The notes under the pieces were generated by a model. The model ran no database searches and was not told the origin of the DNA. It worked only from the letters and a program-made list of their open reading frames with translations. From contig CADEEH010000008.1 in assembly GCA_902826305.1 (NCBI GenBank), positions 1-64,000 of the forward strand: a stretch of 64,000 nucleotides of DNA. The letters are read 5' to 3'. Of the stretch, positions 1 to 19,216 are shown one piece after another. This DNA comes from an uncultured Burkholderiales bacterium. GTDB taxonomy: Bacteria; Pseudomonadota; Gammaproteobacteria; Burkholderiales; Burkholderiaceae_E. Numbering within the stretch: position 1 is the first letter of the stretch; each line of letters starts with the position of its first letter. Made by a program: the position numbers and the translations under genes.

Positions 1-1103
1 TCCTCGCGGACGAACTTCTCGCCGTCGAGTTCGATCCGCGACAGCATCTGGAACTTGAGCGAACCGACGAACAGGCTGCCTTGCCAGGCGGGGAACTTGT
101 CGCCGGTGTAGAACGCCATGCCCGACGGTCCGATCGACGGCGTCCACTGGTGCACCGGCTCCCTGACGTCGGCGCGGCGCGTGCCCTCGCCGATCCGGAA
201 GCCGGTCACGTACTCGCGACCGTAGGTGATCACCGGCCAGCCGTAGTTGGTGCCGGCCTCCTCGACGTTGATCTCGTCGCCGCCCTGCGGGCCGTGTTCG
301 TGGGTCCAGAGCCGGCCGGTGACCGGATGCAGCGCGGCGCCCTGCACGTTGCGATGACCGAACGTCCAGATCTCGGGCAATGCGTCCGGTGCCTTCGCGA
401 ACGGATTGCCCGGCGGCACGCTGCCGTCGGTGCGGATGCGGACGATCTTGCCGAAGTGGGTGCCGAGGTCCTGTGCGCGGTCGCGTTCGCTGTAGCGGTC
501 ACCCATCGTCACGAACAACACACCCCCCGGGGCGACGACGATGCGTGATCCGAAGTGATTGTTGCCCGATGCCGCCTGGCGTTGCGCGAAGATCACCTTG
601 ACGTTGGTCAGCCCGGCATCGGACAGTTCGGCGCGAGCCACCGCGGTCCTCGCGCCCGAATCGGTCGGTTCCGAATAAGACAGGAACAACACGCGGCTGC
701 GGGCGAAGTCGGCCGACAGCGCCACATCGAGCAGGCCGCCCTGGCCCTGCGCCTGCACCTTCGGCACACCGGCGATCGGCGCCGACAACTCGCCGCGGCT
801 GCTGACGAAGCGCATCGTGCCGCCACGTTCGGTGACCAGCATCCTGCCATCGGGCAGGAACACGAGCGACCACGGCAACGTCAGGCCCTTGGCGACCTCG
901 ACGACCTGGAAGCCGACCGCGGCGTTCGCCCGGCCGTCGTCGGCGGTGACAGGGCACACGCCGGCGAGGCCCAGGGCGGAGCCGCCGAGCAGACGGATCG
1001 CGTTCCTGCGCGGTGTTCGGATTCGAATGTGACTCGACGATGAATCGTCGCTCGAGATGTCGTGATGGTGCATCGCCTGCACGAGTCGCTTCAGGTGTCG
1101 CAT
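1..1103 (-). CDS. PQQ-dependent sugar dehydrogenase (soluble aldose dehydrogenase type), 3' end outside window
   Basis: Reading leftward from an ATG at 1103, about 367 residues are visible and the frame stays open to the window edge. The first ~50 residues hold a TPRRNAIRLLGG stretch like a twin-arginine signal, pointing to periplasmic export. The body shows hallmarks of the YliI/Asd family of six-bladed propeller glucose/sorbosone dehydrogenases: LPWSLVFLPDGRMLVTER near the start, then THEHGPQGGDE, NYGWP and GPSGMAFYTG. Known members oxidise aldoses with PQQ in the periplasm. A GGAGGT ribosome site lies 9 bases upstream. Roughly the last 30-50 residues must lie left of base 1. Substrate cannot be told from sequence. 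Confidence 0.88.
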   Translation of the reverse strand, partial: MRHLKRLVQAMHHHDISSDDSSSSHIRIRTPRRNAIRLLGGSALGLAGVCPVTADDGRANAAVGFQVVEVAKGLTLPWSLVFLPDGRMLVTERGGTMRFVSSRGELSAPIAGVPKVQAQGQGGLLDVALSADFARSRVLFLSYSEPTDSGARTAVARAELSDAGLTNVKVIFAQRQAASGNNHFGSRIVVAPGGVLFVTMGDRYSERDRAQDLGTHFGKIVRIRTDGSVPPGNPFAKAPDALPEIWTFGHRNVQGAALHPVTGRLWTHEHGPQGGDEINVEEAGTNYGWPVITYGREYVTGFRIGEGTRRADVREPVHQWTPSIGPSGMAFYTGDKFPAWQGSLFVGSLKFQMLSRIELDGEKFVRE

Positions 1104-1126
1104 GGTCGGGACCTCCGGCGCCATGC

Positions 1127-1132
1127 TACATT
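1127..1132 (+). promoter_or_regulatory. Candidate -10 element TACATT
   Basis: GCTACATT lies 42 bases before the ATG at 1169, the same spacing as similar hexamers ahead of several other genes here. No convincing -35 box is seen, so this is an inference from recurrence. Confidence 0.4.
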
Positions 1133-1168
1133 CGTGGCCCTCCGAATACCCCTGATTCCGACGCCGAG

Positions 1169-1987
1169 ATGCAGTGCGATCCACGAACGTTGCGCGCGAT
1201 CGTCACGGCCGTGACCCTCTGCGCCGCGGACGTGTCCCTCGCGCAGGGCAAGCTGAACGTCAGCGAATCGGTCGAGTTGAGCGCGCCGGTCGCGCGGACC
1301 TGGGCGGTGATCAAGGACTTCGACCAGTGGCAACGCTGGCATCCCGCGATCACCGGTACCGAGATCGTCAAGGGTCGCGGCAACAACGCGGGCACGGTGC
1401 GGCTGCTGACCACACGCGACGGCCAGCGGATCAGCGAAGAGTTGCTCGCCTACAGCGACAAGCTGATGAGTTATCGCTATCGGATCGTCGAGTCGACGCT
1501 GCCGGTCGCGCAGTACGTGTCGACGATCAAGGTGGTCAAGGGTCGTGGCGTGTCGGTGATCGTCTGGCGCGGATCGTTCAACGCCGCCCCCGGTGTCGCC
1601 GACGCGGAGGCGCGGCGGGTGATCACCGGCATCTATCTCGCCGGCTTCGACGGTTTGAAGAAGCGTCTACCGCCCCCGGAACCACCGAAGCCGGCCAGAC
1701 CGGGCAAGCCGGCGGCCAAGCCGGGCGACAAGCCACCGGCGGATGTGTCCAAGCCCGGGTCGAAACCGTCGCCTGGCACGGCGCCGAAGGACACACCGAA
1801 GTCGATACCGAAGGACACACCGAAGTCGGTGCCGAAGGACGCACCGAAATCGGTGCCGCAGGAAACACCGGCCAGGCCGGTCGCCCCCGCCATCAAGGAC
1901 GCGCCGGTTTCCCCGCCGAAGCCGCCCGCCGCGCCGGTGCCGCGGCCGTCACCCGCTCCCCCGCCGTCACCGACGACAACCGGCTGA
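1169..1987 (+). CDS. Periplasmic SRPBCC (START-like) protein with Pro/Lys-rich repeat tail
   Basis: The 272-residue product begins with a signal peptide (residues 1-26, ending LAQG), followed by a START/polyketide-cyclase fold at about 30-165, with the typical opening SAPVARTWAVIKDFDQWQRWHP and a GTVRLLTT strand. From residue ~166 it changes to a disordered tail rich in Pro, Lys and Asp that contains three and a half 8-residue repeats of the form PKDTPKSV. The fold binds small hydrophobic ligands in other proteins; the ligand here is unknown. The ATG at 1169 is preferred because it places the signal peptide at the N terminus. It is divergent from the sugar dehydrogenase, 65 bases away. Confidence 0.75.
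   Translation: MQCDPRTLRAIVTAVTLCAADVSLAQGKLNVSESVELSAPVARTWAVIKDFDQWQRWHPAITGTEIVKGRGNNAGTVRLLTTRDGQRISEELLAYSDKLMSYRYRIVESTLPVAQYVSTIKVVKGRGVSVIVWRGSFNAAPGVADAEARRVITGIYLAGFDGLKKRLPPPEPPKPARPGKPAAKPGDKPPADVSKPGSKPSPGTAPKDTPKSIPKDTPKSVPKDAPKSVPQETPARPVAPAIKDAPVSPPKPPAAPVPRPSPAPPPSPTTTG
1784..1870 (+). repeat. 24-bp tandem repeat, 3.6 copies, in-frame
   Basis: Units begin at 1784, 1808, 1832 and 1856 and encode PKDTPKSI, PKDTPKSV, PKDAPKSV and a diverged PQETPARP. Copies 1 and 2 differ only in the last codon. It lies within the tail of the SRPBCC protein. Confidence 0.85.
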
Positions 1988-2068
1988 TCGGGGCGCGCGG
2001 CAGGCGCCTGTGCTGTATACGCTTCTGCTTCGAGTCGCGTGTTCGCACCACACGTCCGTCGATGGGTC

Positions 2069-2530
2069 TCAGGCCCGGATGAATTCGGCGATGCGCGGAT
2101 CGCGACGCATCGCGGCCAGGTCGTCGGCACTCGGCAGTTGCGGCCGATCCCGTTGCCGGTTGACCAGGCACAGGAAGCCGAGCGGCTCGTCGCCGGCGCG
2201 GAACTGGTGCCAGGTCAGCGCGGAGATCCGCACCAGGTCCTGCGGGCCGACCGGGTGGATCCGGTCACCGACCAGGCAAGACCCGCGACCGCGCGCGATC
2301 ATCACCGCATGGGTGTGTTCATGCCGCTCGAGGGTCGACCAGCCGCCGGCGGCGACCTCGAAGTAGCGCCATTCGCAGCCGAGCGTCGGATCGTCGAACA
2401 GGACCTGCCGCGTCACGTCGCGAAACGGCGCGCTGCCTTCTTCCTTGTAGCGCATCACCTCGACGCCGTCCCAGCGGAAATCGGCACCGGCCTTGCGCAC
2501 CGGCGAATCGCCGGCGGATGAATCGGTCAT
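2069..2530 (-). CDS. Cupin-domain protein, candidate methylthioxylulose 5-phosphate methylsulfurylase-like enzyme
   Basis: A 153-residue single-domain cupin. Metal-binding residues are readable: His70, His72 and His74 in ERHEHTHAV and His108 in TWHQF, with FRDVTRQVLF and PLGFLCLVNRQRDRPQLP flanking. This resembles, from memory, the Rhodospirillum rubrum cupin that removes methanethiol from methylthioxylulose 5-phosphate to give deoxyxylulose 5-phosphate. That enzyme is also encoded next to a RuBisCO-like protein, as here: the RLP stop at 2541 lies 10 bases upstream of this start. AAGGA precedes the ATG at 2530. Fold is certain; the reaction is inferred from similarity and neighbourhood. Confidence 0.75.
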   Translation of the reverse strand: MTDSSAGDSPVRKAGADFRWDGVEVMRYKEEGSAPFRDVTRQVLFDDPTLGCEWRYFEVAAGGWSTLERHEHTHAVMIARGRGSCLVGDRIHPVGPQDLVRISALTWHQFRAGDEPLGFLCLVNRQRDRPQLPSADDLAAMRRDPRIAEFIRA

Positions 2531-2540
2531 CGTGGATCCT

Positions 2541-3665
2541 TCAGGACGAGCCGGCCTGCGGTCCGGTGCACGCCTCGACACGGGCGACGAACTGCTCGAT
2601 GCGTTCACTCATCGCGTCGCCCGCCTCGAGCAGGTTGCCGCCGATCAGCAGCACCACGTCGCGCCCGTAGTCGGCGACGATCTCCTCGACCCGCTCGACG
2701 CGCATGCCACCGGCCGGAATCGGCAGGATCGCACGATGAGTGCCTTGTGTCGTACGCGCCGCGGCGGCGATCGCCAGGCAGGTCTCGCGGTCGTAGCTGA
2801 AACGTCCGCCGTGGTTCGGAAAGATCGTCGCATCGGCGCCGAACGCACGAAACAGCCGGCCGAGCAGCAGCGCGGGCGCGATGCGGGCGGCGCCCGCGAA
2901 CGCCGGGTGCGCGAGCACCGGCACACCCATCGCCAGCCGCACCGCGTCGATGAACGACGGCACACCGAGCAGCATCGGGCAGGCAAGCACCATCTGCACA
3001 CCTTCGTCGTGCACCACACGCGCCTGTTCGGCGAGCCGGGTCGGGCCGCCCGAGATGCACGGGGCGTAGATCGCGCGCCGCCCGGTCTCGCGGTTCGCCC
3101 GCGCGACCGCGCGCTGGACCAGTGCCACCCGCTCGGCGAACGGTGCAAACGGCTGGTCCGCCAACCCGTGGTCGTCCTTGATCAGGTCGATGCCGGCCAC
3201 CGCGAACGCATAGGCGAGATCGGCCAGCGCCTCCGGTGGCGAGCCGATCGGTTTCAACGCGCTGCAGGTCAGCGCGCGATCCGGCACGCCGAGCCGTTCG
3301 CGGATGCCGGCGGCGCCCGCGACCGGACCCGGCAGCGCGTCACAGATCGAAGGCGGAAGCTCGACGTCGAGCAGCGTCACCTCGTCGTGCAGCGAACTGT
3401 TGCCGAACAGCATGTTCAGCAACTGGCCGGCCTCCAGGCCGGTCGCGGCCACCGACAGCGACAGCACCACGCGGTGGCTGTCACCCGCGGGATCGGACTC
3501 GATCGTCGCGACCGTCGCCAGCACGTCACGCAACACGACCGCGTCGCGGATCGCCGTCGGCGGCATCTCGACACTCTGCTCGACGGCCAGCGCGGCGGCC
3601 CGTTGGTCGACCTGGTCGGCGGGGCAGCGGATCCGGTAGTGGGCGCGGAAACGCTCAGCGTTCAT
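2541..3665 (-). CDS. RuBisCO-like protein (form IV, RuBisCO large-subunit family)
   Basis: 374 residues, the usual length for form IV proteins and shorter than true RuBisCO (~470). The C-terminal barrel is clear: SALKPIG (Lys138), then the carbamylation-loop segment GIDLIKDDHGLAD with Lys163, Asp164 and Asp165. The third residue is His where carboxylases have Glu, so it should not fix CO2. Known form IV enzymes are enolases or isomerases of methylthioribulose-1-phosphate, or act on apionate derivatives. Pairing with the cupin points to 5-methylthioribulose-1-P isomerisation in an MTA-isoprenoid shunt; the apiose-type decarboxylase alternative remains. Its ATG overlaps the stop of the DUF2189 gene by 11 bases, so the three are probably cotranscribed. 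Confidence 0.82.
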   Translation of the reverse strand: MNAERFRAHYRIRCPADQVDQRAAALAVEQSVEMPPTAIRDAVVLRDVLATVATIESDPAGDSHRVVLSLSVAATGLEAGQLLNMLFGNSSLHDEVTLLDVELPPSICDALPGPVAGAAGIRERLGVPDRALTCSALKPIGSPPEALADLAYAFAVAGIDLIKDDHGLADQPFAPFAERVALVQRAVARANRETGRRAIYAPCISGGPTRLAEQARVVHDEGVQMVLACPMLLGVPSFIDAVRLAMGVPVLAHPAFAGAARIAPALLLGRLFRAFGADATIFPNHGGRFSYDRETCLAIAAAARTTQGTHRAILPIPAGGMRVERVEEIVADYGRDVVLLIGGNLLEAGDAMSERIEQFVARVEACTGPQAGSS

Positions 3666-4446
3666 CGTCCGCTGCGATCAGGTCGCGGTAGGCATGCCAG
3701 GTGGCATGGCCGATCCACGGGGCGGTGATCACCAGCAGCCCGAACCAGATCGCCAGGCTCGTACCGATGATCAGCACGATCAGCAACGCCCACAGGTAGA
3801 TCGCCCGTGGGTTCAGGAACAGCGTCTTCACACTGGCGAAGATCGCCATCATCGTGTCGATCCGCCGGTCGAGCATCAGCGGCACCGACACCACGGAGAT
3901 GCTGAAGACCAGCGTGGCGAACACGAAGCCGACCGCGGCCCAGACCGCGACGAACTCCAGGTTCTGCAGCGAGACGATCTGCGCGAGCATGCCTTTCATC
4001 GTCGGGAAATCGGTGGTCGAGAAGAGCGCGAAGATCACCACCGACACCCGGGCCCAGACGATCATCGCGAAGGTGAGGATCGCCGCGTAGAACGCGATCG
4101 ACGGCAGGTTGCGGCGCCAGCAGTAGAAGCTGGCCGGCAGGTCGGGTTTCTCGCCCCGGCTGCGCTGCCGCGACAACTCGTAGACGCCGGTGCAGACGAA
4201 CGGTCCGAGCAGGAAGAACCCGGCGCTCACACCCATCGTCAATTGCCATCGCGTCGCATAGATCAGGGAGATCGCCGTACCCATCGCCGCAAACAGCAGC
4301 CCGTAGAACGCGCCGCGAAAGCCGGTGGCGCGCAAGTCCTGCCAGCCGCGGGCCAGCCAGGACAATGGCGCCGTCGTCGCCACCGCGCGCACGCCCGGTG
4401 ACCGATCGATCGCCTCGGTGGCCTGCGTGCCCGCCTGTTCACTCAT
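3655..4446 (-). CDS. DUF2189 integral membrane protein
   Basis: A 263-residue protein with a ~30-residue polar N terminus and about six hydrophobic segments, matching the DUF2189 family (WLARGWQDLRATG at the start of the conserved part, GPFVCTGVYELSR after the second segment, and a C-terminal AIWFGLLVITAPWIGHATWHAYR). The family sits in the inner membrane and has no established function. The ATG at 4446 is chosen because conserved sequence starts just after it and an AGGGGG stretch lies upstream; the frame stays open further upstream but encodes only Cys/Arg/Val-rich shadow sequence. First gene of the unit with the RuBisCO-like protein and the cupin. Confidence 0.8.
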   Translation of the reverse strand: MSEQAGTQATEAIDRSPGVRAVATTAPLSWLARGWQDLRATGFRGAFYGLLFAAMGTAISLIYATRWQLTMGVSAGFFLLGPFVCTGVYELSRQRSRGEKPDLPASFYCWRRNLPSIAFYAAILTFAMIVWARVSVVIFALFSTTDFPTMKGMLAQIVSLQNLEFVAVWAAVGFVFATLVFSISVVSVPLMLDRRIDTMMAIFASVKTLFLNPRAIYLWALLIVLIIGTSLAIWFGLLVITAPWIGHATWHAYRDLIAADDER

Positions 4447-4632
4447 CTCGTCGCCCCCTGCTGATCGTCGCCTGCGTCGGGCAACGGAATTGTCGCGATC
4501 GAGTATAGCGCCGGCATCACGCGTCGACCCGTCACACGCGCGGGCGCCAAAACCCGCGTTGCCACCGTCGGTATTGGATATGGGGCAGCACGTGCGGCGG
4601 GGCTGACTCTCTGGCAGCATGCGGGGAATTGC

Positions 4633-5853
4633 ATGGCCGCACGAGGACTCGAGGCACACGAGGACTCTGGACCACACAAGGACTCTGAGCCGTACAAGGA
4701 CGCAGGGCCGCACAAGGCGCCAGGCCAGACAAGGGTCGCAAGGCGACACGAAATCGCAAGGCGACACGAGGGCTGGCGACGCAAGGACATGGCAAGAACG
4801 ATCGAACGGGTTCCACCGCCGCATCTGCGCGAAGTCGAGCGCATGGCTGCCGAGCGGCGTGCCGACGAGGGCGGCCATCGCCTGCGCCACACATTCGCTC
4901 TTGGAGCGGGTGTCGGCGCCGGCCTGCTCGTCTGTGCGCTGGTGTTGTGGTTCGCATTGTCGTCCGAGCCGACGGTGGCGCGGCGTGCAGGTGATGGCGC
5001 CCTCGGCGAACGCACCGCGCGCACCGGAGTGACCGGCACCGTGACGACCTCACCGACCGACGCCCAGTCCGCCGCGGGTGTGCAGGGCGAGCCTCGGATC
5101 GCACGGGCCGACCCGCCGCCGATCTCGCGCGTCGAGCCTGCGCCAACGCCTGCCGACCCGGCCAACACGGCGCGAACGGGCCGCTCCACCGACGGGCCTG
5201 GTGCGGCCGCGGCGGATCAGCGGCGCACGGATCGGACATCCCGGCCGGCCGTCAATGAGAGGTCCGTGGCGGCACCGCGAGCGGAGGCAGTCCCCGGCCG
5301 CGAGGCGGGTGCCCCCGCGACGCCCGCAACCCCGGCGCCGGCGACCTCGACAAGCCCGGCGACGCCCGCGACCTCGGCAAGCCCGGCGCCTCCTGCGACC
5401 TCGGCAACGCCGGCGACTCCGGCAACCCAGGCAAGCACGGCAACCTCGGCGACCCAGGCAACCCCGGCAACCCCACCCCGGCGGGTTCTCGGGTCCGTCG
5501 AGACCGGCCCGGGACCGCGGGTCGTGCTGCACGTCGACCGCAGCGCCGCCGAACGCGAGCCGGCCCGTCTGGCACGACTCGCCGAGCGGCTGCGCGGCGC
5601 GGGCGCCGGTTCGATCGAAATGGTCGAAGTTGACGTCCGGATCGGTCGCGATCAGTTGCGCTTCTACTTCGATGACGATCGGGCGGACGCGCAGCGGCTG
5701 GCGGCAGCCCTGGCCATACCGGCCGGCCAGGGCACCGGCCCGGCACGATCGCCGGAGGTGCGCGACTTCACGTTCTACCGCCCGTTGCCCCGCGGCGGCA
5801 CCATCGAGATCTGGCTCGCCTCGTCCACCTCGGAGAGCGCCGCCTTCAATTGA
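4633..5853 (+). CDS. Single-pass membrane protein with Ala/Thr/Pro linker and LytR_C-like C-terminal domain
   Basis: 406 residues from the ATG at 4633 (GGGGAA upstream). Residues ~9-50 are seven degenerate hexapeptide repeats ([18 protein letters not shown] and so on). One transmembrane helix follows at ~86-108 ([21 protein letters not shown]), then ~180 residues dominated by ATPAT-type repeats. The last ~120 residues are globular, with [31 protein letters not shown] and a final strand, resembling LytR C-terminal domains that bind envelope partners. The topology predicts a periplasmic C terminus. A later ATG at 4789 would drop the hexapeptides and is an equally possible start. No function is claimed. 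Confidence 0.6.
4657..4782 (+). repeat. 18-bp degenerate tandem repeat, 7 units, in-frame
   Basis: Seven consecutive 18-base units, each beginning with a cacgag/cacaag-like hexamer, encode the six-residue units [36 protein letters not shown] and HEGWRR. The first four and last three form two subfamilies. Confidence 0.8.
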
Positions 5854-5870
5854 CGTTGACGTCAACGTCA
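5851..5870. promoter_or_regulatory. Perfect 20-bp palindrome ahead of icmF, candidate acyl-CoA regulator operator
   Basis: TGACGTTGACGTCAACGTCA is its own reverse complement over all 20 bases. It contains two overlapping copies of TTGACGTNNACGTCAA-like sequence, the form I recall for MerR-family regulators of branched-chain acyl-CoA catabolism (LiuR type). Its left edge is the stop codon of the preceding gene, and it lies 126 bases before the icmF ATG. TTGACG at 5850 with CAAGAT at 5873 (17-base spacer) could be a promoter overlapping it. Confidence 0.65.
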
Positions 5871-5995
5871 TTCAAGATCGCGGACCAACCCCCATTCGTT
5901 CCTTCCGGCAATCGGGCGGAGTATGTTTCGGATTCCGGGATATGCGCCAGCCGAGCCGGGCCGCCTGCGCCCGTCCGCGGGAGGAGACCGCAGCG

Positions 5996-8900
5996 ATGAC
6001 CGACCTGTCCGACGCCAAGAAGCTCGCCCAGTACCGCGCCACCCACAAGGTGCGCTTCGTCACCGCCGCCTCGCTGTTCGACGGTCACGATGCCTCGATC
6101 AACATCATGCGCCGGATCCTGCAGTCGATGGGCTGCGAAGTGATCCACCTCGGCCACAACCGGTCGGTCAGCGAAATCGTCGACTGCGCGCTGCAGGAGG
6201 ACGCCCACGGCATCGCGGTGTCGTCCTACCAGGGCGGGCACGTCGAATACTTCAAGTACATGATCGACCTGCTGCGGCAGGCCGACGCGGGCCACGTCCG
6301 GGTGTTCGGTGGCGGCGGCGGCGTGATCGTCGCCAGCGAGATCCAGGAGCTGCACGATTACGGCGTGACCCGGATCTACAGTCCGGAGGACGGCCAGAAG
6401 ATGGGGCTGGCCGGGATGATCGGCGACATGATCAGCCGCTGCGACGTCGACCTCACGGCTTATTCGCCGACGACCGTCGAGCCGGTCACGCGGTCGCGCC
6501 GTGCGCTCGCGCAGCTGATCACCGCGCTCGAACACGGCGGGCACTCGGGCATGGATGCCGGCGCGTTCGAGGCGCTTCGCAACGATCTGCATCGCCGCGC
6601 CGACACGGTCAGGACACCGACGCTGGGCATCACCGGAACCGGTGGTGCGGGCAAGTCGTCGCTGACCGACGAGCTGGTGCGCCGGCTGCGCCTGGACCAG
6701 GACGACAGGCTCAGGATCGCGATCATCTCGGTCGATCCGACCCGGCGCAAGAGCGGCGGTGCGCTGCTGGGTGATCGCATCCGGATGAACGCGATCGACT
6801 CGCCCAATGTCTACATGCGCTCGCTGGCCACACGCGAGGCCGGCAGCGAGATCAGCCAGGCGCTGCCCGACGTGATCGCCGCCTGCCGCGTCGCCGGCTT
6901 CGACCTGATCCTGGTCGAGACCTCGGGCATCGGGCAGGGTGACGCGGCGATCGTGCCGCTGGTCGACACGACGTTGTACGTGATGACCCCGGAGTTCGGC
7001 GCGGCCAGCCAGCTCGAGAAGATCGACATGCTCGACTTCGCCGACTTCGTGGCGATCAACAAGTTCGACCGCAAAGGGGCCGTCGACGCGCTGCGCGACG
7101 TCTCCAAGCAGTACCAGCGCAACCGGGAACAGTTCACGAAGCGCCCCGACGAGATGCCGGTGTTCGGCACACAGGCATCGCGTTTCAACGACGACGGCGT
7201 GACCGCGCTCTACCAGGCGATGCTGCCGCGGCTGCAGGAGCTGGGGCTGGCGACGCCGGTCGAGCCGCGGCTGCCGAAGGTCTCGACCCGGCACTCGACC
7301 GCGCAGGTGGTGATCGTGCCGCCGGATCGTTCGCGTTACCTGGCCGACATCGCCGCGACGCTGCGCGGCTACAAGGCACGTGCACGACAGCAGGCGAAAC
7401 TCGCCCGCGAGGTGCAGCAGCTGCGCGCGAGTGCGCGGATGCTCGAGGCCGAAGGCGGCGGTGCCGCCGAAGCACGCGACACCGTCGCCACGCTGGCCGA
7501 CCGGCGCGAGGCGGGACTCGACCCGGCGGCGCGCAAGCTGCTCTCGTTGTGGCCGAAGATGCAGCAGGCCTATTCGGGCGACGAATACGTGGTGAAGATC
7601 CGCGACAAGGAGATCCGCACCGAACTCACCCGCACGACGCTGTCCGGCACGCGGATCCGCAAGGTGTCGCTGCCGACCTGGGAGGATCACGGCGAGCTGC
7701 TGCGCTGGCTGATGCTGGAGAACGTGCCCGGCTCGTTCCCGTTCACCGGCGGCGTGTTCGCGTTCAAGCGCGAAGGCGAGGATCCGACCCGGATGTTTGC
7801 CGGCGAGGGTGACCCGTTCCGCACCAACCGCCGCTTCAAGCTGCTGTCCGAGGGCATGCCGGCCAAGCGGCTGTCGACCGCTTTCGACTCGGTGACGCTG
7901 TACGGCAACGACCCGGACCTGCGTCCCGACATCTACGGCAAGGTCGGCAACTCGGGCGTGTCGATCGCGACGCTGGACGACATGAAGGTGCTGTACGGCG
8001 GCTTCGACCTGTGTGACGCCGCCACCAGCGTCAGCATGACGATCAACGGCCCGGCGCCGACGCTGCTGGCGATGTTCATGAACACCGCGATCGACCAGCA
8101 GCTCGACAAGTTCCGCGCCGACAACGAGCGCGAGCCCACCGACACCGAGGCGGCCAAGATCCGCGAGTGGACGCTGGCCAACGTGCGCGGCACGGTGCAG
8201 GCCGACATCCTGAAGGAAGACCAGGGCCAGAACACCTGCATCTTCTCGACCGAGTTCAGCCTGAAGGTGATGGGCGACATCGCCGAGTACTTCGTGCACC
8301 ACGACGTGCGCAACTTCTATTCGGTAAGCATCAGCGGCTATCACATCGCCGAGGCCGGCGCGAACCCGATCAGCCAGCTCGCGTTCACGCTGGCCAACGG
8401 CTTCACCTTCGTCGAGGCGTATCTCGCGCGCGGCATGCACATCGACGACTTCGCGCCGAACCTGTCGTTCTTCTTCAGCAACGGGATGGACGCCGAATAC
8501 ACGGTGCTGGGCCGGGTCGCGCGCCGGATCTGGGCGGTGGCGATGCGCGACCGTTATGGCGCGAGCGAGCGCAGCCAGAAGCTCAAGTACCACTGCCAGA
8601 CCAGCGGCCGCAGCCTGCACGCGCAGGAGATCGACTTCAACGACATCCGCACGACGCTGCAGGCGCTGATCGCCACCTACGACAATGCCAACAGCCTGCA
8701 CACCAACGCCTACGACGAGGCGATCACGACGCCCACCGAGGAGAGCGTGCGCCGCGCGATGGCGATCCAGCTGATCATCAACCGCGAATGGGGCCTGGCC
8801 AAGAACGAGAACCCGAACCAGGGCAGCTTCATCGTCGAGGAGCTGACCGAACTGGTCGAGGAGGCGGTGCTGTCCGAGTTCGAGCGGATCGCCGAACGCG

Positions 8901-9286
8901 GCGGCGTGCTCGGCGCGATGGAGACCGGCTACCAGCGCGGCCGGATCCAGGACGAGAGCATGCACTACGAGATGCTCAAGCACACCGGCGAGTACCCGAT
9001 CGTCGGTGTCAACACGTTCCGCAATCCGCATGGTGATGCGGTGCCCGGCAGCCTCCAACTGGCGCGTTCGACCGAGGACGAGAAGCGCTCGCAGCTCGCC
9101 CGGCTGGCGGACTTCCACGCGCGGCACGCGGCCGAGTCGCCGGCCGCGATGGCGCGGCTGCAGCGGGCGGTGATCGACAACGGCAACGTGTTCGAGGTGC
9201 TGATGGACGCGGTGCGCTGTTGTTCGCTCGGCCAGATCACACGTGCACTGTTCGAGGTCGGCGGGCAGTACCGGCGCAGCATGTAG
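5996..9286 (+). CDS. icmF: Fused isobutyryl-CoA mutase IcmF (B12-dependent, with G-protein chaperone domain)
   Basis: 1096 residues, the length typical of IcmF. Order: B12-binding domain at ~15-145 with DGHDAS (His31 as the lower cobalt ligand) and VFGGGGGVI; MeaB-like GTPase at ~205-430 with Walker [27 protein letters not shown] and the base-specificity motif NKFD; a helical linker; then the mutase barrel to the end ([40 protein letters not shown]). It interconverts isobutyryl-CoA and butyryl-CoA, or related branched acyl-CoAs, with adenosylcobalamin; the GTPase part loads and protects the cofactor. The ATG at 5996 has a strong GGAGGAG. Substrate choice among IcmF-type mutases cannot be fixed by eye. 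Confidence 0.96.
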
Positions 9287-9305
9287 CACGGAAGGCGGCG
9301 GGCGG

Positions 9306-9725
9306 ATGCGGCAGGTCGGCACGACACTCGCCGTCGACACCCGCGGTCGCGGGTTGTTCGACATCACCTCGCGCCTCGTCGACTGGGTCCGCGAGTCCGG
9401 GATCCGTCAGGGACTGCTGACGGTGTTCATCCGCCACACCTCGGCGAGCCTGGTCATCCAGGAGAATGCCGACCCGGGCGTTCGTCGCGACCTCGAACGG
9501 TTCTTCGCGTCGCTGGTGCCCGACGGCGATCCGCGTTTCGAGCACGACCAGGAGGGACCCGACGACATGCCGGCCCACGTGCGCGCCGCGCTGACGCAGA
9601 CACAACTGTCGATCCCGGTGCAGCACGCGGCACCGGTGCTCGGCACCTGGCAGGGGGTCTACCTGTACGAACACCGGACCCGCGGCCATCGCCGCGAGGT
9701 GGTGCTGCATCTGATCGGGCAATGA
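9306..9725 (+). CDS. YjbQ/UPF0047 family protein
   Basis: A compact 139-residue protein with the whole family signature: LLTVFIRHTSASLVIQENADPGVRRDLERF, then HDQEGPDDMPAHVRA and a final GTWQGVYLYEHRTRGHRREVVLHLIG. YjbQ proteins form trimers and show weak thiamine-phosphate synthase activity when overproduced; the true role is unsettled. The start at 9306, 20 bases after the icmF stop, is the only ATG placing the conserved core correctly, with a modest GGCGGGCGG upstream. Could be cotranscribed with icmF. It converges on the GNAT gene, whose stop is 10 bases away. Confidence 0.9.
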   Translation: MRQVGTTLAVDTRGRGLFDITSRLVDWVRESGIRQGLLTVFIRHTSASLVIQENADPGVRRDLERFFASLVPDGDPRFEHDQEGPDDMPAHVRAALTQTQLSIPVQHAAPVLGTWQGVYLYEHRTRGHRREVVLHLIGQ

Positions 9726-9735
9726 CGCCGGCGCG

Positions 9736-10617
9736 TCAGCGCAGGCGGCTGTGCGGGCCCGAGACTCGGCCCGGGTTCAGCACCGGCAGGTTCTCCAGCG
9801 AATCGGACTTGACGACCCAGGTTGCCGGCGGCACGGCCGGCACGGCCGGCGTGGGCAGGTGATCCGGACGACGACGGTCCTCCTCGGCACGCCAGCGCTT
9901 GATGTCGATCGTCTCCAGACCCTCGCGCAGGTCGCGGGCGGCCCATTCGGCGCGTTCGATCCGGAACACCATGTAGTGGCGCTCGCGTCCGGCCTCGTCA
10001 CGGATCGAGCCGAGGTCGACCGGGTCGAGCCCGACCTTCTCGAGCACGCGGTGCGCGGGCTTGTTCTCGTGCATCGAGCGCGCGTACAGCCGCGGTGCGT
10101 CGCTCTCGTTCATCGCCGCCTGGACCGCGAGACGTGTGGTCTCGGTGCCGAAGCCGCCGCCCCAGAACTCGGGATGGGTCCACAGGCTCATCTCGACGCC
10201 GTCCGCGTACGGCGCGAAGCGATACACCGCGACGAACTGTCCGGTCTTGCGCAGCACCGCGGCCAGCGCCGCGATGCGGCCGTTGCGCGCCTGCGCGGCG
10301 ATCGATTCGATCCGCTCGAACACCGGCAGCCGGTGTTCCGGGCGCTGCCACAGCAGGTGATCGTTGAAGCCTTCGACCTGGGTCGCTTCGTACAGCGGCC
10401 ACGCATCGCTCAACGCTATCGGCCGCAACGCCAGGCGTTCGCTGTAGTGGTAGACGCAACGCTGTGCGAAATGCTGGAAGTTCAACGGAAACGCCCGGTC
10501 GCCAGGAATGGCCCCGATGATGTCGACGACCGCTTTGGCGCCTGAGCGTTTGCGGGTGGGCGGATCGAAACGACGAATGACCGGCAGCCCGATGTCTGGG
10601 AACTGCGACAGCACCAC
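9736..10617 (-). CDS. GNAT-family N-acetyltransferase (RimJ/RimL type)
   Basis: Up to 293 residues from a GTG at 10617. The RimJ/RimL-like core lies at ~60-230: LRPIALSDAWPLYEATQ, the acetyl-CoA loop EFWGGGFGTETTRLAVQAAM (a variant of the Q/R-x-x-G-x-G/A pyrophosphate loop) and YARSMHENKPAHRVLEKVGL, the usual helix where neighbouring residues change least. Such enzymes acetylate protein N termini or small amines; the substrate here is unknown. About 55 extra residues precede the core and a Pro-rich 35-residue tail follows. The start is uncertain because no ATG is available upstream of the domain. Confidence 0.75.
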   Translation of the reverse strand: MVLSQFPDIGLPVIRRFDPPTRKRSGAKAVVDIIGAIPGDRAFPLNFQHFAQRCVYHYSERLALRPIALSDAWPLYEATQVEGFNDHLLWQRPEHRLPVFERIESIAAQARNGRIAALAAVLRKTGQFVAVYRFAPYADGVEMSLWTHPEFWGGGFGTETTRLAVQAAMNESDAPRLYARSMHENKPAHRVLEKVGLDPVDLGSIRDEAGRERHYMVFRIERAEWAARDLREGLETIDIKRWRAEEDRRRPDHLPTPAVPAVPPATWVVKSDSLENLPVLNPGRVSGPHSRLR

Positions 10618-10827
10618 GGACGAACGGTCGGTTCCCGTTGCGCGGACCCGGCTTGGACTCGGTGCGTCGTGGGCGTCGTGTTTACCCGTCGTTTCCGCGC
10701 CGCCGGCCCCGGCTTTGTGGTTTACTGGGACAGGGGTCGGGGCCGGATGGTCGGTCCGCGACCGTCAACGGCCCGGGTCGCCTGGCTTCGGCGGGTGACG
10801 TTCCCGGACCCAGGGGCGTTGGTACGC

Positions 10828-12672
10828 ATGAAGGACGAGTCAACACCCACCGACCGGCCGGCGGATCGTCCGGCCGGGGCCGCCGACGGAGCATCATCTG
10901 CCGCCGCGGGCCCCGGCTCGTCTCCGATCGAGGCGGCCCGGCTGGTCCGCATGATGGACGCGGCCGGCGAGGCCTACTGCGTCCTCGACCGTGACTGGCG
11001 CATCGTCCAATGCAACGAGCCGCTCGCCCGTTTCTTCGGTGTCGACATCACGGGCATCGTCGGCAGGACCACGTTCGAAGTGAACGCACGGCTGAGCCAG
11101 TCGGTGTTCTTCCCGGTGCTGCGCGACGCGATGGACGGCCGTGTCGCCGGATTCCGGACCGGCTACTCGGTGCGGACCGGTCACTGGCTGATGTTGCGGG
11201 CCTATCCGTTCGACGACGGCATCGCGGTGATGGTCCACGACATCTCCGAACTCAGCGACGAACAGCAACGGCTGACCTACCTGGCGCTGCACGACTCGCT
11301 GACCGCGCTGCCGAACCGGCTCGCGCTGCAGCGTGAGATCGGCGAGGCGATCGCGATCGGTCGGCCTTTCTCGGTCGTGTTCCTCGATCTGGACCGGTTC
11401 AAGAACGTCAACGACTCGGCGGGCCATGTCGTCGGCGACCGGGTGCTGATGGAAATGTCGGCGCGGTTGTCGCAGGTGCTCGCCGAGGGTGATCGGCTGT
11501 TCCGTGTCGGCGGCGACGAGTTCGTGCTGGTGACCGCGGCGCTGGATCGCGATCTCGACGACAAGGTCCAGGCGATGCTGGTCGCGGCCAAACAACCGAT
11601 CCTGATCGGTGGCGTGGAGTACACACTCGGCGCCACCGCCGGGGCGTCCTGCTCGCCGCACGACGGGGACGCGTACACGACGCTGATCCGCCGCGCCGAC
11701 ATGGCGATGTACGCGGCCAAACACGACGCATCCGGGACGATGCGCCGCTACGACCCGGGGCTCGAGGCCTCGACGGTGCGCAAGCTGACGATCGAACAGG
11801 CATTGCGCCGTGCGCTCTCGGGCAACCACTTCGAGCTCCACCTGCAGCCGAAGGCGACCGTGGCCGGGCTGCGCCTGGTGGGTGCGGAGGCGCTGCTGCG
11901 CTGGCCGCATCCCGATCGCGGCTTCGTCGATCCGGTGGAGCTGCTGGAGGTCGCACAGGACTGCGGACTGCTGGTCGATGTCGATCGCTGGGTGCTCAAC
12001 CATGCGATCGGCATGCTGGCGCAACTGCGCCAGGAAGGTGTGCCGACTCGGATCGCGGTCAACGTGTCGGGCGCGAGTTTCGAGCGCACCGGCCTGGCCT
12101 CGCAGGTCCTGGAGCTGCTGACACGCTACGACGTGCCGCCCGAACTGCTCGAGATCGAGATCACCGAGAGTTGCCTGATGCGCAACACCGAGACCAGCGC
12201 GGCCACGCTGGACGCGCTGACCGCGGTCGGCGTGCGGGTCTGCGTCGACGACTTCGGCACCGGGTATTCGAGTCTCGCCTACTTGAGCGACTACGCGGTC
12301 GACACGCTGAAGATCGACTCGCAGTTCGTACGGCGGGCCACCATCGATTCGCGCAGCCGCAACCTGATCCGCGGGATCATCGCGCTGGCCCACTCGCTGG
12401 AACTCGACGTCGTCGCCGAGGGTGTGGAGACCGAGGAACAGTTGCAGCTGATGCGCGAGCTGCAGTGTGACCATCTGCAGGGGCACCACTTCGCCCGGGC
12501 GATGTCGTGTGAGGAGTTCAAGGCGTTCGCAAGGGCCGCGATCAAGGCCGGGCGCGGGCCGCTGGCCGAGCCGGCGGCACCGGTCGCCCGCCGCGGCCTC
12601 GGCGTGGACGACACGCCGGTGCTGCCGCGCCGCCGGCAGCGCGCCGCCGCGGGCGACAAAAAGGCCCGGTGA
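10828..12672 (+). CDS. PAS-GGDEF-EAL c-di-GMP turnover protein
   Basis: 614 residues, cytoplasmic, no transmembrane segment. PAS domain at ~30-140 (CVLDRDWRIVQCNEPLARFFG). GGDEF domain with intact active site VGGDEF at ~228, so it may synthesise c-di-GMP; the five-residues-upstream position reads AEGD instead of RxxD, so the product-inhibition site is missing. EAL domain from ~340 with AEALLRW, NVSGASF, EITES, DDFGTGYSS, KIDSQFV, AEGVET and QGHHF all present, so phosphodiesterase activity is likely. The basic tail ends RRRQRAAAGDKKAR. The ATG at 10828 is favoured; earlier in-frame starts would add low-quality sequence. Its stop codon lies in the loop of a terminator hairpin. Confidence 0.92.
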   Translation: MKDESTPTDRPADRPAGAADGASSAAAGPGSSPIEAARLVRMMDAAGEAYCVLDRDWRIVQCNEPLARFFGVDITGIVGRTTFEVNARLSQSVFFPVLRDAMDGRVAGFRTGYSVRTGHWLMLRAYPFDDGIAVMVHDISELSDEQQRLTYLALHDSLTALPNRLALQREIGEAIAIGRPFSVVFLDLDRFKNVNDSAGHVVGDRVLMEMSARLSQVLAEGDRLFRVGGDEFVLVTAALDRDLDDKVQAMLVAAKQPILIGGVEYTLGATAGASCSPHDGDAYTTLIRRADMAMYAAKHDASGTMRRYDPGLEASTVRKLTIEQALRRALSGNHFELHLQPKATVAGLRLVGAEALLRWPHPDRGFVDPVELLEVAQDCGLLVDVDRWVLNHAIGMLAQLRQEGVPTRIAVNVSGASFERTGLASQVLELLTRYDVPPELLEIEITESCLMRNTETSAATLDALTAVGVRVCVDDFGTGYSSLAYLSDYAVDTLKIDSQFVRRATIDSRSRNLIRGIIALAHSLELDVVAEGVETEEQLQLMRELQCDHLQGHHFARAMSCEEFKAFARAAIKAGRGPLAEPAAPVARRGLGVDDTPVLPRRRQRAAAGDKKAR

Positions 12673-16145: not shown

Positions 16146-17627
16146 GTGTCCCTGCGTCCTGCCATCGCCAGCCAGCAGTTCGATGACGCCGCACTCGCGC
16201 TTGCGCACGTGCGGGCGATCTACGATGCGAACCTCGCCTACCTTCGCGACGAACTGCAGCGCTTCCTGCAAGGCATCGATCCGCCGGAGCGTGTGCATGC
16301 GTTCTACCCGACGGTGCGGCTGGTCACCGACACCGTCGCACGTCCGGACTCGCGGCTGGCCTACGGCTTCGTCGCCGGGCCGGGCACCTACGCGACGACA
16401 CTCACCCGTCCCGACCTGTTCGACGACTACTACCTGGATCAGTTCCGGCTGCTGATCGGCAATCACGGCGTCGCGCTCGAGGTCGGCACCGGCAGCGAGC
16501 CGATCCCGATGCATTTCGCGTTGCCCGAGGACCATCACCTCGAGGGGGCCCTGGGTCCGGAGCGGCAGTTGCGCCTGCGTGACCTGTTCGACCTGCCCGA
16601 CCTGGCGGCGATGGACGATGGCATCGCCAACGGCACCTATCAGCCGGCGCCGGGTGAACCGCATCCGTTGTCGCTGTTCACCGCGTCGCGTGTCGACTAC
16701 TCGCTGCATCGCCTGCGCCACTACACCGGCACCGCGCCCGCGTGTTTCCAGAACTTCGTGTTGTTCACCAACTACCAGTTCTACGTCGACGAATTCGTCC
16801 GTCTCGGCCATGCACTGATGGCCGGCGACCGCTCGGCCGCACTCGAGGACAGCGATGCCTACGAGGCCTTCGTCGAACCGGGGGATCTGACGACGCTCCG
16901 TGGCGGCGGCACCTCCGGCAGCGCACCGCCGCGGCTGCCGCAGATGCCCGCGTACCACCTGGTGCGCGGTGATCGCGCCGGCATCACGATGGTCAACATC
17001 GGTGTCGGACCGGCCAACGCGAAGACGATCACCGATCACATCGCGGTGCTCAGGCCACATGCGTGGATGATGCTCGGCCATTGCGCGGGCTTGCGCAATT
17101 CGCAGCGGCTGGGTGACTACGTGCTCGCCCACGGCTACGTCCGCGAGGATCACGTGCTCGACGAGGACCTGCCGTTGTGGGTGCCGATTCCGGCGCTGGC
17201 CGAGATCCAGGTCGCGCTCGAGGCGGCGGTGGCCGAGGTCACGCGGCTGTCGGGTTATGAACTCAAGCGGATCATGCGCACCGGCACGGTCGCCTCGACC
17301 GACAACCGCAACTGGGAACTGCTGCCGCAGCAGACGCCGGTGCGCCGTTTCAGCCAGAGCCGGGCGGTGGCACTCGACATGGAAAGTGCAACCATCGCCG
17401 GCAACGGGTTCCGCTTCCGCGTGCCGTACGGCACGCTGCTGTGTGTGTCCGACAAACCGCTGCATGGCGAGATCAAGCTGCCGGGCATGGCCGGTCGGTT
17501 CTACCGCGAACGGGTCGAACAGCACCTGCGGATCGGGCTGCGCGCGGTCGAACTGTTGCGGACCCAGCCGGTGGCCCGCCTGCACAGCCGCAAGCTGCGC
17601 AGCTTCTTCGAAGTCGCGTTCCAGTAG
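16146..17627 (+). CDS. amn: AMP nucleosidase
   Basis: 493 residues from a GTG at 16146, matching the usual ~480-490. The N-terminal half is the Amn-specific regulatory domain (RLAYGFVAGPGTYATTLTRPDLF, DYYLDQFRLLIGNHGVALEVG, RVDYSLHRLRHYTGT). The C-terminal half is the nucleoside-phosphorylase-like catalytic fold (VNIGVGPANAKTITDHIAVLRP, GHCAGLRNSQRLGDYVLA, AVALDMESATIAGNGFRFRVPYGTLLCVSDKPLHGE, the last with the catalytic Asp). It hydrolyses AMP to adenine and ribose 5-phosphate, usually ATP-activated and phosphate-inhibited, adjusting adenylate pools. GTG is favoured because the upstream TACAGT looks like the promoter. Confidence 0.95.
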   Translation: MSLRPAIASQQFDDAALALAHVRAIYDANLAYLRDELQRFLQGIDPPERVHAFYPTVRLVTDTVARPDSRLAYGFVAGPGTYATTLTRPDLFDDYYLDQFRLLIGNHGVALEVGTGSEPIPMHFALPEDHHLEGALGPERQLRLRDLFDLPDLAAMDDGIANGTYQPAPGEPHPLSLFTASRVDYSLHRLRHYTGTAPACFQNFVLFTNYQFYVDEFVRLGHALMAGDRSAALEDSDAYEAFVEPGDLTTLRGGGTSGSAPPRLPQMPAYHLVRGDRAGITMVNIGVGPANAKTITDHIAVLRPHAWMMLGHCAGLRNSQRLGDYVLAHGYVREDHVLDEDLPLWVPIPALAEIQVALEAAVAEVTRLSGYELKRIMRTGTVASTDNRNWELLPQQTPVRRFSQSRAVALDMESATIAGNGFRFRVPYGTLLCVSDKPLHGEIKLPGMAGRFYRERVEQHLRIGLRAVELLRTQPVARLHSRKLRSFFEVAFQ

Positions 17628-17734: not shown

Positions 17735-19216
17735 ATGTCCATCCGACCCGTCCTCGTTGTCCTCACGGCCGCCGCCGCACTGTGGGCGTCACCTGCCGTC
17801 CGGGGCGCGGAGCCGGCCGATGGTCTCCGGCCGCCGGCCGCTTCCGCGGGGTCCCCGGCATCGGGCGCGGCGGGCGCTCCGTCGTCGGCCGCCCCATCGT
17901 CGGCCGCCGGGGCGACCCCGCCGACCGGCGCGCGCCAGGTGCCACCCGGCGCACCGCCGCTGATCGCGATCCCGCGCTTGTCGGAACAGGTCACCGAAAC
18001 CCCGCAGCCGCGGCCGGCGGCCAATGCGGCGCCGGCCAAGGCGTCGGCATCGACCGCGGAACACACACCACCGGCGAGTGCAGCTGCACCGAAGGCGGCG
18101 ACGCCGGCGCCGGCGAGCCCGGCGGCCGCAGCAGCACCTCCGAAGGCTTCGCCGCCGCCCGCCGCGCGGGCTGCCACGGTCCCCTCGGGCCAGACGGTGC
18201 AGGCCGTCCATGCGGCACCGGGTCCTCGATCCGACCATGCACCGGCACCGGCACCGGCACCGGCGCACGCCGCTGCCGCCGGCACGCCGTCCGCTCACGC
18301 CGCGGCGGAAGCGCCCAGACCGGCGGCTCCGACCGGCGCGGCCGCAACGCCACCGATCCCGACGACCGCGATGTCGGAATCGCAACGGCTGGCGGCGCTG
18401 CGTGACCGGATCGCCGAGAAGGTGATCGAGCACCGCGCGGCAGCCGCGGGGACACCGCCGCCGTCGCTGGTGATCACGGTGCGCAAACCGGAGGGCGGCT
18501 CGGCCCACGGAAAATCGACACGCCGCAACGCCGATCACGGCGGCGCACACTGGAGCTACCAGGGTGCGACCGGCCCCGAGCACTGGGCCGACCTCGATCC
18601 GGCCAATGCCGCCTGTGCCATCGGTCAGCGGCAGTCCCCGATCGACATCCGGGGCGGCGTCAAGGTCGATCTGGAGCCGATCACCTTCGACTACCGCGCC
18701 GTGCCGTTCCGGGTGATCGACAACGGGCACACCGTCCAGGTCAACGTCGAACGCGGCAACACGATCACGGTGATGGGGCGTCGCTACGACCTGGTCCAGT
18801 TCCACTTCCATCGACCGGCCGAGGAGCGGGTCGACGGTCGGGTGTACGACATGGTCGCGCACCTGGTCCACAAGAGCGCCGATGCGAAACTCGCGGTGGT
18901 CGCGGTGCTGCTCGAACGCGGCGCCGCGCACCCGCTGATCCAGCGCGTCTGGAACAATCTGCCGCTCGAACGCAACGAGGAGGTGCCGGCCTCGCAACCG
19001 GTCGACCTGAACGACCTGCTGCCCGCCGATCGCGGCTACTACACGTTCATGGGCTCGCTGACGACACCACCGTGCACCGAGGGTGTGTTGTGGATGGTGC
19101 TGCGCCAGCCGGTGAACGTCTCGGCCGACCAGATCGGCATCTTCATGCGGCTGTATCCGATGAATTCGCGACCGCTCCAGTCCGCAGCGGATCGGCTGAT
19201 CAAGGAATCGAACTGA
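17735..19216 (+). CDS. Secreted alpha-class carbonic anhydrase with very long Ala/Pro-rich linker
   Basis: 493 residues. AAGGAG lies 8 bases before the ATG at 17735. Signal peptide at 1-24 (AVRGAE), then ~240 residues of Ala, Pro, Ser and Thr with almost no other structure, then the enzyme from ~267: HWSYQGATGPEHW, CAIGQRQSPIDI, the zinc ligands in FHFHRP and the third His in MVAHLVHK, and SLTTPPCTEGVLW with the gate Thr. It hydrates CO2 in the periplasm or outside. Bacterial alpha enzymes are usually ~220-250 residues, so the linker doubles the size and suggests anchoring to, or spanning, the envelope. A Cys pair (NAACAIG, TPPCTEG) fits the conserved disulfide. Confidence 0.93.
   Translation: MSIRPVLVVLTAAAALWASPAVRGAEPADGLRPPAASAGSPASGAAGAPSSAAPSSAAGATPPTGARQVPPGAPPLIAIPRLSEQVTETPQPRPAANAAPAKASASTAEHTPPASAAAPKAATPAPASPAAAAAPPKASPPPAARAATVPSGQTVQAVHAAPGPRSDHAPAPAPAPAHAAAAGTPSAHAAAEAPRPAAPTGAAATPPIPTTAMSESQRLAALRDRIAEKVIEHRAAAAGTPPPSLVITVRKPEGGSAHGKSTRRNADHGGAHWSYQGATGPEHWADLDPANAACAIGQRQSPIDIRGGVKVDLEPITFDYRAVPFRVIDNGHTVQVNVERGNTITVMGRRYDLVQFHFHRPAEERVDGRVYDMVAHLVHKSADAKLAVVAVLLERGAAHPLIQRVWNNLPLERNEEVPASQPVDLNDLLPADRGYYTFMGSLTTPPCTEGVLWMVLRQPVNVSADQIGIFMRLYPMNSRPLQSAADRLIKESN

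Follow-up and report, generated by a model that had tools for sequence, protein, structure and literature searches.

A RuBisCO-like protein and cupin gene pair as a very probable methylthioadenosine-isoprenoid shunt module in an uncultured Burkholderiales bacterium

The window analysed here is a stretch of 64,000 nucleotides (positions 1 to 64,000 of contig CADEEH010000008.1) from a genome assembled in 375 contigs, with an estimated completeness of 95% and a contamination of 3.75%. Three intact genes, encoding a DUF2189 integral membrane protein (3655..4446; PF09955, 121 bits), a RuBisCO-like protein (RLP; 2541..3665) and a cupin (2069..2530), follow each other in that order on the minus strand. 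The TGA stop codon of the DUF2189 gene overlaps the ATG start codon of the RLP gene by 11 bases (3655..3665, minus strand; ATGAACGCTGA). Profile searches matched the RLP, a protein of 374 amino acids, to PF00016 with 63 bits and the cupin to PF07883, both above the cut-offs. For the cupin, the ATG at 2530 is a better start than the GTG at 2608; it lies 10 bases past the RLP stop codon and gives a protein of 153 amino acids, as long as the cupins of the relatives. The sequence-only reading of this DNA had described an RLP with K163-D-D-H, a cupin with HEHTH directly after it and a DUF2189 gene overlapping the RLP gene, all of which are borne out.

On the cupin side, the set is followed by a convergent polyketide-cyclase-like gene (1211-1987) and by a gene of the glucose/sorbosone dehydrogenase family (1..959, minus strand), which is cut by the contig start and is a syntenic neighbour of the RLP-cupin pair in relatives. 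On the other side lies a plus-strand gene of about 1114 codons (5942..9286), which by its sequence was read as a fused acyl-CoA mutase of the IcmF type; a homologue of the same length flanks the RLP-cupin pair divergently in one relative (G024, L047). A search for regulatory RNA gave no Rfam match in positions 1-12000 of the window. Further along, a carbonic anhydrase of the eukaryotic-type (alpha) family is encoded at 18371-19216.

The best solved relative of the RLP is 3qfw (1e-103), followed by YkrW enolases (2oek at 4e-38). In a maximum-likelihood tree, the window RLP falls inside the DeepYkr clade with a support of 100/99; the clade holds 28 rows, including 3qfw and a Rhodopseudomonas RLP, and the YkrW, OiaX-like and form I sequences lie outside it. 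The check proposed in the earlier reading, a phylogeny of the RLP against the form IV clades, thus places it away from both the YkrW and the OiaX/apionate RLPs. The tree program flagged long branches between YkrW and DeepYkr, which affects the relation between the clades more than the membership of the window RLP, whose own branch is longish (0.63). Within the clade, RLPs from the same taxonomic family are the sister group of the window RLP, an arrangement that suggests vertical inheritance. The motif KDDH is present in all 28 DeepYkr rows and invariant in an alignment of 11 RLPs, whereas the YkrW, OiaX-like and form I rows carry KDDE; from these alignments we infer that KDDH instead of KDDE in the carbamylation loop is a signature of DeepYkr proteins. 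The NCBIfam scores of the window RLP stay below every curated cut-off, and no DeepYkr model was among the models matched. Based on the structure matches and the tree, the protein is predicted to be a 5-methylthioribulose-1-phosphate 1,3-isomerase of the DeepYkr type. The structure 3qfw is presumably that of R. palustris RLP1, as its pairing with the Rhodopseudomonas RLP in the tree also indicates. For R. palustris RLP1 and the R. rubrum RLP, the rate of the 1,3-isomerisation is about 1.2-1.3 per second; the cupin acts next (PMC5893883, PMC4958253).

Two further genes of the RuBisCO fold were observed elsewhere in the genome, which thus holds three of them. Contig C16 carries a form I RuBisCO large subunit with a divergent LysR-type regulator (L001:1429-2892), and contig C34 a second, OiaX-like RLP (497 bits, cut-off 700) whose gene overlaps that of an OiaK-like kinase (L061:1519-4214). 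This OiaX-like RLP and the kinase would represent a putative pathway of the apionate type, one that diverges from the curated families.

For the cupin, the best solved relatives are 3kgz (4e-58) and 3jzv, which is Rru_A2000 (2e-51). Rru_A2000 is the methylthioxylulose-5-phosphate sulfurylase of R. rubrum, and its homologue in R. palustris acts likewise (PMC4958253, PMC5893883). Across 101 sequences, a conservation of at least 97% was measured for H70, H72, H74 and H108, as well as for the HxHxH and WHQF motifs. The window cupin is a close homologue of Rru_A2000 with the metal-ligand histidines in place, and these matches predict it to be a 1-methylthioxylulose-5-phosphate methylsulfurylase.

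A DeepYkr RLP was found in 26 of 201 related genomes; the cupin is present in the same 26 and in none of the other 175 (Fisher value 3e-33, calculated on genomes that are related and hence not independent). The two genes are adjacent in every locus of the family. Of 80 GTDB loci spanning several phyla, 71 have a called cupin, with few exceptions directly after the RLP; the calls at related loci are those of a home-made codon-usage caller, and some of the loci without a called cupin run into contig edges. The pairing is far from chance, and the pair is a unit.

The search for mtnP and mtnA proposed in the sequence-only reading had a divided outcome. Profile searches of the genome detected mtnA on contig C58 (390 bits, cut-off 279) and, apparently in place of mtnP, a predicted methylthioinosine phosphorylase together with a candidate MTA deaminase. 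Two members of the phosphorylase superfamily were found in the genome. One of them, an AMP nucleosidase, is the only such gene of the window (16209-17627), which agrees with the earlier statement that other mtn genes are absent from it. The other, on contig C132 (L066:8723-9547), fits best to the methylthioinosine phosphorylase model (367 bits, cut-off 223); it scores 277 bits on the MTAP model, barely above the cut-off of 274.85, and lacks the TDYD motif. Its nearest structure is 3ozb, which is named methylthioadenosine phosphorylase in the database and which we take to be the methylthioinosine enzyme of P. aeruginosa. When aligned with the enzyme of the relative G036, it has ANHAAG at the site of TDYDCW, read here, from MTAP and PNP structures, as a presumable mark of 6-oxopurine specificity. 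The candidate deaminase is an amidohydrolase on contig C89 (L150:1330-2661; 614, cut-off 540) whose score exceeds the threshold of a model with no closer name than TRZ/ATZ family hydrolase. The nearest structure is 4f0r, named methylthioadenosine/S-adenosylhomocysteine deaminase, with 4dzh, 4dyk and 4gbd also close. Since the genome has no other MTAP-like enzyme than the predicted methylthioinosine phosphorylase and also encodes a deaminase-like protein for MTA, the pathway is probably entered by way of methylthioinosine, as Pseudomonas does it. An indirect feed of the shunt of this kind, which the gene content suggests, is a front end of modest novelty that the sequence-only reading had overlooked. 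In a survey of the phosphorylase type in 25 relatives that bear the RLP, the N-x-AAG type was present in at least 22; G036 has the TDYD type as well, G007 gave no match and G050 a fragment only.

With the DeepYkr placement of the RLP, the presence of mtnA and the homology of the cupin, whose function is predicted, to Rru_A2000, the earlier interpretation of the pair as an MTA-isoprenoid shunt is well supported as a prediction. We hold it to be very probable that the pair is an ordinary, vertically inherited module of this shunt, with gene content and synteny observed and the enzymatic steps inferred. In the proposed scheme, MTA, a sulfur-bearing waste compound that arises from polyamine and SAM reactions, would be converted to methylthioinosine, probably by the deaminase on C89, and methylthioinosine to methylthioribose-1-phosphate by the phosphorylase on C132, from which MtnA would form methylthioribulose-1-phosphate. 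The window RLP would isomerise the latter to 1-methylthioxylulose-5-phosphate, and the cupin, with a thiol such as glutathione, would split this into 1-deoxyxylulose-5-phosphate, destined for isoprenoids, and the methylthio group. This group would end as methanethiol, to be joined to O-acetylhomoserine so that methionine is remade; three O-acetylhomoserine sulfhydrylases score above the cut-off in the genome. A search of the genome for mtnD (acireductone dioxygenase) gave no match; judged by this gene, the canonical oxygen-dependent route therefore looks absent. A parallel route via mtnB, mtnC and a class II aldolase (DHAP shunt) may exist.

Conservation of the neighbourhood was examined in the related genomes. 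Genes read from their sequences as metW and metX adjoin the end of the RLP-cupin block in many relatives, an arrangement that fits the joining of methanethiol to O-acetylhomoserine. In the genome of the window, metX and metW (the MetW confirmed by Pfam) lie inside contig C2, so that the loss of the link merely at a contig edge was rejected and the synteny of the relatives is broken here. In 19 of the 26 family loci, the gene after the cupin encodes a crotonase and often shares 4 or 8 bases with it (L037:6122-6931, L052:2064-2894 and 17 others). Four of these crotonases were examined and none reached an NCBIfam cut-off among the models listed. One of them, aligned to 5z7r, is without the usual glutamate pair, the catalytic residues of hydratases. 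Many relatives have such a crotonase, with catalytic residues that are altered, coupled to the cupin; it is missing 3' of the cupin in the window, where the polyketide-cyclase-like gene takes its place. On balance we favour, with some reserve, the view that this branch of the Burkholderiaceae feeds the shunt via methylthioinosine, combining a front of the Pseudomonas type with a back of the R. rubrum type, with the atypical crotonase coupled in many members. No paper containing both terms was found in a literature search combining "MTA-isoprenoid shunt" and "methylthioinosine".

The DUF2189 protein had been proposed as part of the set, exporting or handling methanethiol. That it serves as a third operon component, for instance by exporting or sensing methanethiol at the membrane, would be in keeping with its position on the same strand and with the 11-base overlap, which would allow translational coupling; such a role is nevertheless highly improbable, as the gene is neither adjacent to nor co-distributed with the RLP-cupin pair in relatives. 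No DUF2189 gene was found beside the RLP in the 26 family loci or the 80 GTDB loci. The orthologues in relatives, 60-75% identical to the window protein, are located elsewhere (beside a threonine-dehydratase-like gene in two inspected genomes), and in 8 of the 25 RLP genomes the search for DUF2189 gave no match. A rearrangement private to this lineage is therefore the most likely origin of the join. Neighbourhood and distribution speak against DUF2189 as a pathway part, and it is probably a lineage-specific chance neighbour, for which cotranscription with the RLP is plausible and a functional link is not indicated. The genome holds a second, distant copy (36%) on contig C136, and the literature yielded only an incidental mention of DUF2189.

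Two other readings concern the reaction itself. An assignment of the window RLP to the apionate-pathway decarboxylases or the YkrW enolases could be argued from the shared fold and from weak matches to the OiaX (61 bits, cut-off 700) and MtnW (132 bits, cut-off 513.6) models. However, the fully supported position of the protein in the tree, apart from either group, speaks against both assignments; its KDDH in place of KDDE, the separate OiaX-like RLP beside an OiaK-like kinase on C34 and the lack of an mtnD match in the genome point the same way, leaving this reading hardly any probability. The module might alternatively carry 5'-deoxyadenosine as its main load, instead of or besides MTA. By chemical analogy, the RLP would then isomerise 5-deoxyribulose-1-phosphate directly to 1-deoxyxylulose-5-phosphate, and MTIP-type phosphorylases are reported to take 5'-deoxyinosine (PMC6302742). 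The cupin would not be needed for such a conversion, whereas its strict pairing with the RLP implies a methylthio substrate, and no such test was found among the titles and abstracts of the papers listed; we regard 5'-deoxyadenosine as a very unlikely main load.

By the MTA-isoprenoid shunt reading, a whole lineage joins the organisms that probably produce methanethiol and deoxyxylulose phosphate from MTA by an oxygen-independent way. The findings further suggest that one set of entry enzymes of the shunt can take the place of another. A false lead also falls away, as DUF2189 is not to be annotated as a shunt component.

Among known systems, the OiaX-type RLP of the apionate pathway shares with the window RLP the RuBisCO fold, and an OiaX-like gene is present in this genome, but the window RLP belongs to another clade and is without a kinase neighbour. 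The MTA deaminase/methylthioinosine phosphorylase route of P. aeruginosa resembles the front end described here in the phosphorylase, nearest to 3ozb and with the N-A signature of the purine site, and in the deaminase, nearest to 4f0r, 4dzh, 4dyk and 4gbd; it differs in that here the product would pass to the RLP and the cupin, mtnD of the canonical salvage not having been found in the genome. The closest known MTA-isoprenoid shunt systems are those of R. rubrum (RLP Rru_A1998, cupin Rru_A2000) and R. palustris (RPA2169, RPA2170). Unlike these, the present genome has a methylthioinosine phosphorylase and a deaminase as the feed instead of MtnP, and a DUF2189 gene overlapping the RLP start, seen in this genome only. 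Adjacent DeepYkr RLP and cupin homologues, MtnA and O-acetylhomoserine sulfhydrylase are common to all of them; the two-enzyme module of RLP isomerase and cupin is already known, and the copy in the window is an ordinary one.
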